Shown in pieces: positions 32,752 through 63,990 of a DNA stretch of 64,000 bases. The notes beneath the pieces are model-generated. The model had not been told where the DNA came from and ran no database searches. It was given only the letters and a program-made list of their open reading frames with translations. Source of the stretch: Symmetrospora coprosmae (taxonomy: Eukaryota; Basidiomycota; Cystobasidiomycetes; Symmetrosporaceae). The stretch is from NCBI GenBank assembly GCA_008802785.1, contig VUYT01000002.1, positions 901,875-965,874 on the forward strand, read 5' to 3'. The first letter of the stretch is position 1; the number at the start of each line of letters is the position of its first letter. A program made the translations under genes and the position numbers.

Positions 32752-35539
32752 GGCAGCCGTGTTCAAGCTGCAGCGAAAGTACCCAGAGCTGGGTCAGCAG
32801 GAGCTGGTGCGTTCGCAGGGCTGCGGTGCAGGACAGAGGTGTGGATGAATGAGAGCAGCTCGTGTTGACGCCTCGCTGTCATTCCACCGTTATACACACG
32901 CGCATGTGCACGCAGATGGGCCTGATCCAGTCCTTCAAGTGAGCCCTGTCGACGTCCATGCGGTGTTGGAGAACGGGTCAGCCACCCCAATGACGCCGCA
33001 GCCGCTGACTCCAGCTTCGACGACCCCGCCCCAGCAACCTTGACACGCAGGGCAAGGAGTCTGTGGACCGCTCGGACGTCGCAAAAGCGCTGGCAGGGCA
33101 GGGCGTGGGCACGTACGACCAGGTCCGAGAGACGCTCAAGGAGGTCGAGGTCGATGCCACGTGCGTTGTTGGCTCGGGGCGGGGCCAGACCCTACCCTGG
33201 TGGTCCTGGATGACGCTGCAGTCATGCTGACGTGCTAGGGAGGATGTGCGCATTTGCAGTGGCCGCGTCGCACTCGATGACTACGTCGACCTCGTCGCGA
33301 AGCTCAAGGCAAAGACGGGAGTCACAAAGCTCGGGCCCGTCATCCCCGGCAGACCGGGGCAGGCTAGCGAGAAGAAGGCCGTCCTGGGAGGAGCGACGGG
33401 GAGCTCGAGCCATACAATAGACCAGGAGGAGTGCGTTCGGGCTGTTCTCGTCCTCTGATCTTGACTGCTGTGAGCTGACGCGCTCACATGGGACGTCTCC
33501 GCCTTTGCAGGAAGAGCGAATTCACGAATCACATTAATGGCGTGCGTTGCATCACGTGAAGCTGGTGCAACATCTGGTGCGAATGCTGACTCGCCCTCGC
33601 GCCGTGCAGGTCCTTGCTGGCGACCCAGATATCGGAGACCGTCTCCCCATTCCGACGGATACCATGCAGCTCTTCGACGAGACGCGAGGTGTGCCTGCAT
33701 GCATGTTCGTCTCCTACGGAAAGCACGCTGATAGTCTCCTCTCCAATAGACGGCCTGGTTCTGTGCAAGCTCATCAACGACTCTGTCCCGGACACGATTG
33801 ACGAGCGCGTCCTGAACAAAGCAACGAGCAAGACGCACCGCCGGATCCCCTCCCAGCCCAACGCCCCCGCGGGTGCATCCTCTGCAAAAGCGCTCAACAA
33901 CTTCCAGATGACGGAAAACAACAACATTGTCATTGCGTCTGCGAAAGCGATCGGGTGCTCGGTCGTCAACATCGGCAGCGCCGACATCATCGAGGGCAGG
34001 GAGCACCTCGTCCTCGGCCTCATCTGGCAGATCATCCGCAAAGGCCTCCTGAGCAAGATTGACATCAAGCTCCACCCGGAGCTGTACCGCCTCCTCGAGG
34101 ACGGCGAGACGCTCGACCAGTTCCTCCGCCTCCCACCGGACCAGATCCTCATCCGATGGTTCAACTTCCACCTCAAGGCCGCCAACTGGCCGAAGAAGTG
34201 CGTGTGGCCTTCCTCTGCCCTCATTTTGTATGAGTATGTTCGACGCTGACGGGGATCAGTGCACAGGGTGCACAACTTCTCCAAGGACGTGTCGGATGGA
34301 GAGGCCTACACGGTTCTCCTGAACCAGCTCAAGCCAGACCAGTGCTCCCGCTCACCACTCCAGACGCGCGACGTGCACCAGCGCGCCGAAGAGGTCCTCC
34401 AGAATGCCGACAAGATCGGATGCCGCAAATACCTGACTGCAAAGTCGCTCGTCGCGGGCAATCCGAAGCTCAACCTGGCCTTTGTCGCCAACTTGTTCAA
34501 TACGTGGCCAGGCCTTGAGGTGCGCGCGAGTCAAATTATGAATGCATGGCCTTCGCGCCGGGGCTGACTGCATTCTTGTCCGGCTTGGGTGTGCAAAGCC
34601 CCTCGAGGAGACGGAACGCCCGGAGATTGAGGACTTTGACGCCGAGGGCGAGCGCGAGGCGCGCGTGTTCACGCTCTGGCTGAACAGTCTTGAAGTCGAC
34701 CCTGCGGTTTACGACCTGTTCGAGAACCTGCGCGACGGCGTGGTGATCCTTCAGGCGTTCGACAAGGTTATCCCCGGGAGCGTCGTGTGGCGGCGCGTGT
34801 CCAAGCCGAAGGTCATCGAGCAGCCGGTTGAGCTCGCCGAGGGCGAGGAGCCCAAGCCGCCCTTGTCGCGGTTCAAGATGGTGGAAAACACAAACTACGC
34901 CGTGGACCTGGCAAAGGCGAATCGGATGCAGATTGTCGGGATCCAGGGGGCCGACATTGTCGATGGAAGCAAGACGCTCACTCTGGGCTTGGTCTGGCAG
35001 CTCATGCGGCGCAACATTGTCCAGACGCTCGCGAGCCTGAGCGCGTCCCGCGGAGGACGCGAAGTCACGGACGGCGATATCGTAAAGTGGGCCAACGAGA
35101 CGGCAAAGAAAGGCGGCAAGAGCTCGAGCATGAAGAGCTTCAAGGATCCCAACAACAAGAATGCAGTCATTTTCCTGGACGTGCTCGACGCGCTCAAGCC
35201 GGGCTATGTCGACTACTCGCTCGTCACTCAGGGCAGGAACGACGAGGAGTGCAGGCTGAATGGTGGGCATCTTGCGCTCCCGTGGCACGTTTCGGTACTC
35301 ACATGCTCACATGCTCACCGCTCCATGCGCCCGCCCAGCCAAGCTCGCCATCTCGATTGCGAGAAAGCTCGGAGCGCTCATCTTCCTCACGCCAGAGGAT
35401 ATCGTCGAGCTGCGCGCAAAGCTCATCATGACTTTTGTCGGAAGGTGCGTGCTGTGACTCGGAGTTGTCCCGTACACAGAGACTTTGGCTGAATTTTCGT
35501 GGTATCCGCAGTCTGATGGCGCTGCAGCTGCAGAAATGA
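32752..35539 (+). CDS. SAC6: Fimbrin/plastin actin-bundling protein
   Basis: Cross-links actin filaments in patches, cables and the cytokinetic ring. A reduced EF-hand region at the N-terminus (SFNNLDTQGKESVDRSDV) is followed by four calponin-homology domains in two actin-binding modules. CH1 has DGLVLCKLINDSVPDTID, LNNFQMTENNNIVIASAKAIG and LVLGLIWQIIRKGL. CH2 has FSKDVSDGEAYTVLLNQL. CH3 has LRDGVVILQAFDKVIPG and LTLGLVWQLMRRN. CH4 ends with KLAISIARKLGALIFLTPED and SLMALQL. The gene has about ten introns, several of about 75 nt; the N-terminal exons are short. The stop at 35537-35539 lies in the last exon after a 3' intron. Length of about 640 residues agrees with fungal fimbrins. Confidence 0.96.
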
Positions 35540-51660: not shown

Positions 51661-52905
51661 TCATGCTGCCTGCTGTTGCTGCGGCTCTATGTGCCCCAGC
51701 TGCCGTTCCAGCTCCTCGCTGGCGACATGCCGGTCTATTCCCTTGACGGGCTCCTCCTCGTCCTGCACGTCGCTCGTGTCCTTGCTCCCCGTGACGCCAT
51801 TGACGTTCTTCATCTCTACTATCCGCCCGAGCTCCTCGAGAATCTCCTTGCCCCCGCGCTGGATGAGCACGACGGCGACATCGTGCCCGAGCTGCTCGGC
51901 GTCGGCTTTTGTACTGATGGACCGCGTCTCGAGGTGGTTGATGGCGCGCGTGCCGTCCAGCGACGCAATAATGGCACGCACTTCGAGCCGGCGCGCCTTC
52001 CCATTGCCATTGCTGTGGCCATTGCTGCTGCTGCCAATCGGCGTTGCCTCGTCCTCCTCTCCATCAACGAACCGCGTCTCGACGCCCACAGGGACCGAGC
52101 ATCCCCCTTCCAGCGTGCGCAGCATCGAGCGCTCGCACGCCGTGCGCAAGTCCGTGTCCGTGTGGTTGAGCCGCGAGATCATCTCGCGCATTCGAGTATC
52201 ATCGGACCGGATCTCGATGCCAATGGCGCCCTGCCCGACCGCGTGCAGCATGACGGGCGAGTTGAGGTACGCAGTGATGCGCTCGCCCTGCTGGGAGCGG
52301 AGCAAGCCGGCACTCGCGAGGATCAGGGCATCGTAAGGGCCGTCCTTGGCGTCGAGCTTGTTCAAGCGTGTGTCGCTGTGGTGAAACAATGTACAGTGTT
52401 AGCCCGTTTGCGCTCTTGGACTAGCGGAAGGAGATAGGCTGGACACGCACATGTTGCCTCGGACATCCTTGAATGTCAGATGCGGGTAGTTCATCCTCAT
52501 CTGCGCAACCCTCCTCACGCTGCTCGAGCCGACGCACGATCCCTCGGGCAGTTCTTCGAGGCTCTTGTACGGCAGCCCGGCTTTGACAACGAGTGCGTCT
52601 CGCGGATCCTCCCTCTCGAGCACGGCGGCAATCTCGCACCCTTCGGGTAGGGACGTGGGCACGTCCTTGAGCGAGTGGACGATGCAGTCTACGATGTTGT
52701 TGACGAGAGCCACCTCGAGGTCTTTGGTCCATAGCGCCTTTGCGCCCATGAGGTACAGCGGCTCGATCTTGTTGCGGTCCCCTGCCGTGCTCATGGGCGC
52801 GAGCTTGAAGGCGAGCGGCGAGGGCGAGGTGAGGAAGTGCGGGTGGGACTGCGGGCGCGACGGGGCGCTGAAGGGGAAGGTGTTGAGGTTCGATGAGGAA
52901 GGGTA

Positions 52906-61418: not shown

Positions 61419-62913
61419 CTATCCCATAACCTTAGAGACCCCGCTCCGCACTGTTCGAAGACGAAAGATCGACGTTAGCTTTGCCTTTGTGTTTCGTTGA
61501 GAATGATGTACTTACGCAATCCACCAACGATGCTTCCCCCAACTCCGCCGAATTGGCTGAGCATGCTGCTCGCGGCCATCCCGCTGGCCCATTTCCGCTT
61601 TGCATCGCGGTCTGCGTACGTGAACCCGACTGTGTTGGTGACATTGAAAACCAGTGCCAGCAGAACGATTGGCAGGAAGGAGATATTGCTGAGGGAGGGA
61701 GAGGGAGAGCTATAAGCCATGTGCGGCTTCTCCGCCTGATCTGGACCTTCATGAGCCGAGAGACGTACAATTTCAGAATGCCGATAAAGAAGAGTGCTAC
61801 CCAGATGACTGGGAACACGTAAAGCGCGATCCAGAACATCTTCGAGTCCACAGCATTCGCAGGTTGAGCGGAGGGCTGAACAGACAGAAGCACGATGGTC
61901 TTAGTATCGATACCTTGTACTGGATTAGACACGGAGAACTCACATCTCGGCTCTCGAAGACCCAGTAGCTACGGGCAGAACGCGTGTCTGAGCTTCAAAT
62001 GCGTACTCTGATGCCATACGGGCGAGGATAGCTCACCTCGTGCCATCGTCGTCAACCTGATTCCAGAACCGCAGGCCGACCAGAGTGCGCCCAGACACGT
62101 TCTGCAGGTGCGTAAGATAATACCGTCAGCACTGGCTCAATCTGGGACAGCAGGTCTAAGTTGCGCGCACCCTGACGGTCCAGAAGTCCATGGAGAGAAG
62201 AATGACGACTAAGACGGTCTGTAAGCGAAACAGCGGGGGTATAGACTGGACTTGTGAGCTCTTTCCGGTGAGGGCATGGTACATGTGCCGTGCAAGACCT
62301 ACCGAGAAGACATCTGTAGACGTCGAGCACGCGCAAAGGGCGGGGAGCGAGTGCAGGCGAGACGCAGCGACCCAGCGCGCAGATGAGCAGGAAGCATCAG
62401 TTGCCGCTACGAGCACGGTTGCGAGCAAAGGCTGGCACGTACAAGAGCTGCTGAAGAAGCCGCAGAGCAGATAGACCGTCACGGCCGCGACCCGGAACGC
62501 GAAGAGGAAGAAGAGGGCGATAGGGTGACTGCAGACAGAAAGAACGTGGAAGGGATTGGCGGCATCGGAATGAATTGCGCGCGTCAGCTTATACTGCTTG
62601 CTGAACGGGTATAGCCGCTTCAAGCAGTCCCGCGACCTGGTCTGGGGCACCCTCCGAGGCCGGACCAGGCCAGCTCGCCCAACCGCACCGTCACTTACGC
62701 AGACTGCTCCCAAATGCTCTGTTCACGCTGCGGCGTGGCCATCTGCCCTCCTGCTGCTCCTGCATTGCCTGTCGCGCTTCCCGAGCTGGGGGGAGCGAGC
62801 TGTTCCTGCTGGCGCACTGCGGTCGGCTGCTGCGACGGGCGCGCTGCCTCGAGGTCCGGCTCAACGTCGGGCGTGATGAGATTGGACTGCGAGGGGGACC
62901 TGAAGCCTGACAT
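61419..62913 (-). CDS. TVP23: Golgi membrane protein Tvp23
   Basis: Late-Golgi/endosome vesicle membrane protein with four transmembrane segments. About seven exons. The N-terminal exon ([20 protein letters not shown]) is cytosolic and Gln/Ala-rich. Core blocks match the family: [99 protein letters not shown] and [13 protein letters not shown]. The end is open: reading through gives a stop at 61475, while splicing at GTAAGT near 61515 to the acceptor before 61450 gives a tail [11 protein letters not shown] and stop at 61419-61421. I prefer the spliced form because it has proper splice signals. Some middle junctions are approximate. Confidence 0.9.
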
Positions 62914-63695: not shown

Positions 63696-63703
63696 TATAT
63701 AAA
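63696..63703 (+). promoter_or_regulatory. TATA box of the U6 gene
   Basis: TATATAAA about 28 bp before the probable U6 5' end at 63724, the spacing expected for TATA-directed Pol III initiation on U6 genes. Confidence 0.75.
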
Positions 63704-63759
63704 GGGCAGCCGCGCGCGCGTCCGTCACCCGGCTCTGCCGTGGTATACATTAAAATTGG

Positions 63760-63831
63760 GTTAGTTCGAAGCTTCCCGTCTACCTGCGCAGTCTGGACCT
63801 CAGACTTACCGCCTCAATCTCTCTCAATCAG
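63760..63831 (+). other. 72-nt mRNA-type intron inside U6
   Basis: Donor GTTAGT, pyrimidine-rich 3' part, acceptor AATCAG. Removing it restores the uninterrupted ATTGG/AACGATACAGAG junction. Confidence 0.9.
63764..63772 (+). promoter_or_regulatory. Pol III B box within the U6 intron
   Basis: GTTCGAAGC fits the GWTCRANNC TFIIIC B-box consensus exactly. Placement inside the intron parallels fission yeast U6. Confidence 0.7.
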
Positions 63832-63910
63832 AACGATACAGAGAAGATTAGCATGGCCCCTGCACAAGGATGACACATGTAGTCAGATAGGATTGATCTT
63901 CGGATCAACG

Positions 63911-63915
63911 TTTTT
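63911..63915 (+). terminator. Pol III terminator of U6
   Basis: Run of five T directly after the TTCG-capped hairpin. Confidence 0.8.
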
Positions 63916-63930
63916 GCTTGATTTCGAAAA

Positions 63931-63990
63931 AAGTGACACATGTAGTCCCAAAAGTGACACATGTAGTCCCAAAGTGACACATGTAGTCCC
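63931..63990 (+). repeat. Tandem repeat sharing a U6 segment
   Basis: Three copies of about 20-21 bp, each containing TGACACATGTAGTC (63934, 63955, 63975) followed by CCC. The same 14-mer lies inside the U6 3' part at 63871-63884. The array may continue past the window end. Confidence 0.9.

Follow-up and report, generated by a model that had tools for sequence, protein, structure and literature searches.

A U6 snRNA gene with a probable mRNA-type intron that contains a B-box match

The window, by which we mean the whole 64-kb stretch of DNA that was analysed, very likely holds a real and probably working nuclear U6 snRNA gene of a fungus, presumably a basidiomycete, that is interrupted by one spliceosomal (mRNA-type) intron. 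A first-pass annotation had described the gene as a U6 split by such an intron, and this description is favoured by the Rfam match, by the U6 consensus that is restored on joining the exons, by signals like those of mRNA introns, and by the comparison with an intronless U6, all of which are read from the DNA sequence. The letters and coordinates that it had given for the TATA box TATATAAA, the exon ends, the intron, the B-box match GTTCGAAGC, and the T5 are all correct.

The U6 gene and its intron

All Rfam families were searched with cmscan against the unjoined DNA, a check that the first-pass annotation had suggested for U6. The U6 family (RF00026) was matched at 63800-63915 on the plus strand with an E value of 2.7e-14 and a covariance-model score of 65.5 bits, which exceeds the gathering score of 44. 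Besides this match, no second Rfam match was found in the 64-kb window up to an E value of 1. The ACAGAG box, the AGC triad, and the letters of the internal stem-loop are all present in the Rfam alignment. The same alignment of the unjoined DNA fills the 5' domain of U6 with 63800-63831, which are the final 32 nt of the intron, and of the five base pairs in the 5' hairpin of the model it leaves two broken. The gene provides one more anatomically clear fungal U6 intron, which is useful for annotation, since the unjoined Rfam match begins inside the intron, and for U6-promoter guide-RNA design.

Exon 1 is placed at 63724-63759 on the plus strand, with an assumed 5' end. It contains the 5' hairpin CGGC-UCU-GCCG and then runs to UUAAAAUUGG, and its last letters, ending at 63759, are TTAAAATTGG. 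Exon 2 occupies 63832-63910 on the same strand, begins with AACGATACAGAG, and contains the ACAGAG box, the AGC triad, the internal stem-loop, and the 3' hairpin UUGAUC-UUCG-GAUCAA. The gene is flanked, as had been claimed, by TATATAAA upstream and a T5 downstream. The TATA box (63696-63703, plus strand), counted from its first T, starts 28 nt ahead of the assumed beginning of exon 1 at 63724, and it is matched once in the 64-kb window, where 0.03 matches are expected; at least one match was obtained in 3 of 100 shuffles. The T5 (63911-63915, plus strand), the presumed terminator for RNA polymerase III (Pol III), was read from the letters and lies at the end of the Rfam match. T5 alone is not a rare word, with 18 matches in the window and 23.7 expected. 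A scan for sigma-70 promoters and bacterial terminators, which is irrelevant to a nuclear gene, found neither.

The predicted mRNA-type intron of 72 nt extends from 63760 to 63831 on the plus strand. It starts with GTTAGT, carries CTTAC at 63805-63809, and ends with AATCAG, and the GT...AG signals that had been ascribed to the removed segment are therefore confirmed by its first and last letters. Joining 63759 to 63832 had been said to give the conserved U6 core. Around the junction 25 of 27 Rfam consensus letters are matched by the joined exons, against 19 of 27 in the best unjoined placement, which bears this out. The word AAAATTGG has a single occurrence in the window when both strands are counted. 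By a count along the consensus line, the intron is situated between Rfam positions 32 and 33, 6 nt upstream of the ACAGAG box, where it separates the UUGG segment of U6 from the AACGAUACAGAG segment. The features by which an intron-containing fungal U6 gene is recognized, namely a GT...AG intron with a branch-site pattern and a U6 consensus restored on joining, were both found.

For comparison, five control mRNA introns of the window were placed by eye from the reading frames of the fimbrin and porphobilinogen-deaminase (HEM3) genes. The fimbrin frame was based on PDB matches to fimbrin chain 1rt8 and the porphobilinogen-deaminase frame on Pfam PF01379; further introns of the same two genes, for example near 33438-33610, were left out of the control set. 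The control introns are 61, 69, 75, 76, and 79 nt long (n = 5), and the U6 intron, at 72 nt, falls inside this range. The branch candidate CTNAY is found 17-31 nt before the end of all five controls when the copy nearest the 3' end is taken for each (some have more candidates), and the CTTAC of the U6 intron is 23 nt before its end. All five controls begin with GTGNGN, and the U6 donor GTTAGT deviates from this pattern at two positions. At position 3 the U6 intron has T, where every control has G, and at position 4 it has A, where the controls have C, T, C, C, and G and never A. Judged by these five controls, the U6 intron fits the mRNA introns of its surroundings except at donor positions 3 and 4. 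The controls at 52376-52450 (minus strand) and within 33689-35338 (plus strand) all begin with GTG, and five introns are too few for judgment.

In the mechanism that we propose, RNA polymerase III would initiate some 28 nt downstream of the first base of the TATA box and would terminate at the T5. The 72 nt would then be removed, as the U6 intron is in fission yeast, by the spliceosome, of which U6 is itself a component, and the mature U6 from this gene would be expected to function.

The B-box match within the intron

The candidate Pol III B box GTTCGAAGC is found at 63764-63772 on the plus strand, inside the intron, where it shares two bases with the 5' splice-site hexamer. It is an exact match to GWTCRANNC, with the letters that had been claimed for it, and a fit to the B-box consensus within the intron is the motif that marks the fission-yeast type of U6 gene. 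The further proposal of the first-pass annotation, that a spliced segment serves as a promoter, stands only in part. The B-box match is indeed present in the intron, but matches of this kind are found in 1.2% of stretches of 72 nt, and a match is also present in one control intron out of five. We consider a promoter role for the intronic B box possible and hold it tentatively; by analogy with the place of the B box in Schizosaccharomyces U6 introns, the match may aid the binding of TFIIIC. If the B box works, it would add to the cases in which a segment that is spliced out carries part of a Pol III promoter, and the gene would help to ask whether the capture of a promoter keeps U6 introns alive.

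An account in which the intron is real and the B-box match arose by chance, with the TATA box and a downstream B box or other elements driving transcription, has in our estimate about an even claim to be correct. The loose motif (GWTCRANNC, the consensus of the first-pass annotation) has 23 matches in the window, where 36.8 are expected, and is found in 5.0% of 300-nt stretches on one given strand. The figure of 1.2% for 72-nt stretches likewise refers to one given strand, and the strict form, GTTCGANNC, is found in 0.3% of them; these two lower rates speak against chance. Among 142 candidate introns, which are signal matches on both strands and not verified introns, the loose form was found in 4 (2.8%) and the strict form in 2. 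The U6 intron, whose donor departs from the signal pattern used, is for that reason outside this set. The control that holds an exact match, to the strict form, is the fimbrin intron at 34198-34266, with GTTCGACGC at 34238; this match was already known from the motif list before the control introns were counted. It adjoins the branch-site candidate CTGAC and serves as a negative control.

The chance account also draws on the arrangement of the neighbouring elements. The A-box consensus is TRGYNNANNNG, and the distance between A box and B box in tRNA genes is wider than 12 bases. The weak A-box-like word TGGTATACATT (63741-63751, plus strand), which has one mismatch to this consensus, is separated from the B-box match by only 12 bases. 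A second A-box-like word with one mismatch is present at 63880-63890. B-box words with one mismatch are found at 63831 and 63903 on the plus strand, and an exact match is found on the minus strand at 63890-63898. The downstream place that a B box of the budding-yeast type would take here, at about 64035, is beyond the end of the window. No tRNA genes, a possible source of a B-box consensus for the species, were found in the window by ARAGORN with the bacterial code. On the other side, the Schizosaccharomyces U6 introns reportedly have a B-box match within them, according to the title of a 1990 paper by Frendewey et al. Because of the base rates and the match in a control intron, the intronic match is suggestive and not compelling, and for the same reasons the B-box match was rejected as proof of promoter function.

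U6 introns and B boxes of other fungi

The first-pass annotation had stated that U6 introns are known in fission yeast and in some basidiomycetes, and for fission yeast this agrees with the U6 passages of PMC8917221 and PMC10484740. In these passages, the U6 gene of S. pombe is a Pol III gene with an mRNA-type intron, and the latter paper places the intron close to the catalytic nucleotides and gives reverse splicing as its presumed origin. As far as these sources go, the gene described here and S. pombe U6 are alike as Pol III U6 genes with an mRNA-type intron and a B-box match inside it, but they presumably belong to different fungal lineages. Following the idea published for the fission-yeast intron, the intron described here may have arrived by reverse splicing into U6 RNA and a subsequent copying back into DNA. 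That it landed independently of the fission-yeast intron and captured a TFIIIC site appears unlikely. In that case the 5' splice site and the B box would be fused, with two bases in common, and a segment removed by splicing would be a required part of the promoter; this would account for the retention of such introns, and the design would be convergent.

Tani and Ohshima are said to have described the intron of the S. pombe U6 gene in 1989 and U6 introns in two red basidiomycete yeasts in 1991, and the title of a 2016 study reportedly speaks of the insertion of U6 introns several times in fungi. Going by such titles, other fungal U6 genes, those of basidiomycetes included, resemble the gene described here in having mRNA-type introns, which appear to have been gained several times. 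The gene, as read from its sequence, is a further case of the intron-containing fungal U6, a kind that is already known. Among the matches listed in our literature search, judged by titles and the starts of abstracts, there was no paper on B boxes in basidiomycete U6 introns.

The SNR6 gene of S. cerevisiae has a TATA box and no intron. It is like the gene described here in combining a TATA box with a B box, which is a candidate here, and unlike it in having no intron and in the position of the B box downstream of the terminator. The distance past the terminator is about 120 nt in the SNR6 passage of PMC1796607. The U3 snoRNA genes of fungi provide a similar situation in a different RNA: in the relevant passage of PMC5832005 they have spliceosomal introns of varying position, and they share with the U6 gene described here the presence of a spliceosomal intron in the gene for a small structured RNA. 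The U6 passages of PMC4424553 held nothing bearing on U6 introns.

Comparison with an intronless U6, RNA folding, and the surroundings of the gene

When an exact 22-nt U6 core was matched against contig collections, one stretch was found in the genome contigs and none in the viral contigs, and no fungal relatives were among the viral and genome contigs matched by this core. The one stretch, L001, belongs to contig JAIYDP010000129.1, filed under a Verrucomicrobiaceae MAG, and holds an intronless U6 of the eukaryotic type at 2250-2370. The contig is likely a eukaryotic contamination of the bacterial MAG record, and its U6 was used solely as an intronless comparison. Exon 2 agrees with it at 44 of its first 47 bases, exon 1 at 13 of its final 16, and the intron at 8 of its final 16.

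A pseudogene, or a non-expressed copy of U6 with a chance insertion, would agree with the repeated U6-derived word that adjoins the gene, but it is quite improbable given an intact core with such identity to the intronless U6 over the first bases of exon 2, the presence of both TATA box and T5, and a donor, a CTTAC, and an acceptor at the spacing of an mRNA intron, which would be unexpected in a random insertion. That the 72 nt are retained in the RNA, as a longer linker from the 5' hairpin to the ACAGAG box, is hardly credible: the U4- and U2-pairing regions of U6 belong to the exon 2 portion and would thus be kept in an unspliced RNA, but joining restores TTAAAATTGG|AACGATACAG exactly and the GT, CTTAC, and CAG signals are present.

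The removal of a spliceosomal intron was also considered in terms of RNA structure, by single-sequence folding. The joined exons fold with the 5' hairpin and with a telestem, GGAACG/CGUUUU, across the junction. The pair probabilities of the telestem are 0.49, 0.83, 0.87, 0.88, 0.89, and 0.86 in the joined RNA, and in the precursor each of these pairs has a probability of 0.0 to three decimals; the presence of the telestem in the one and its absence from the other lend weak support to the modelled joining. Because it comes from one sequence, the telestem is a matter of consistency and not of covariation. As proof of the junction it was rejected, since four of its six pairs are inside exon 2 and the AG at the end of the intron could take the place of GG. 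The 3' end of U6 forms the UUCG hairpin when folded alone, and the stability of the 3' part so folded is not above that of shuffles (z = -0.42).

Three tandem repeats of 21/20 nt are found downstream of the gene at 63929-63990 on the plus strand. They hold TGACACATGTAGTC, a 14-nt word that is also present in U6 at 63871-63884, and the first copy in the array follows the copy in U6 by 63 nt, or three periods. Words of more than 12 nt shared between U6 and the 85 nt downstream were found in none of 5000 single-base shuffles, and a sample of 3176 other 85-nt stretches, taken from both strands of the window, yielded no word of more than 11 nt in common with U6. Conservation in the Rfam U6 consensus extends over the first six letters of TGACACATGTAGTC, so that most likely the array was copied from U6 and not the reverse. 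The array is thus apparently U6-derived, and we offer local duplication as the sole explanation and assign it no role. The stretch 63866-63990 takes in both the U6 word and the array. On the other side of the gene, about 1.8 kb upstream of U6, an exon of a DUF846 membrane protein, which we take to be TVP23-like, is found at 61435-61932 on the minus strand.
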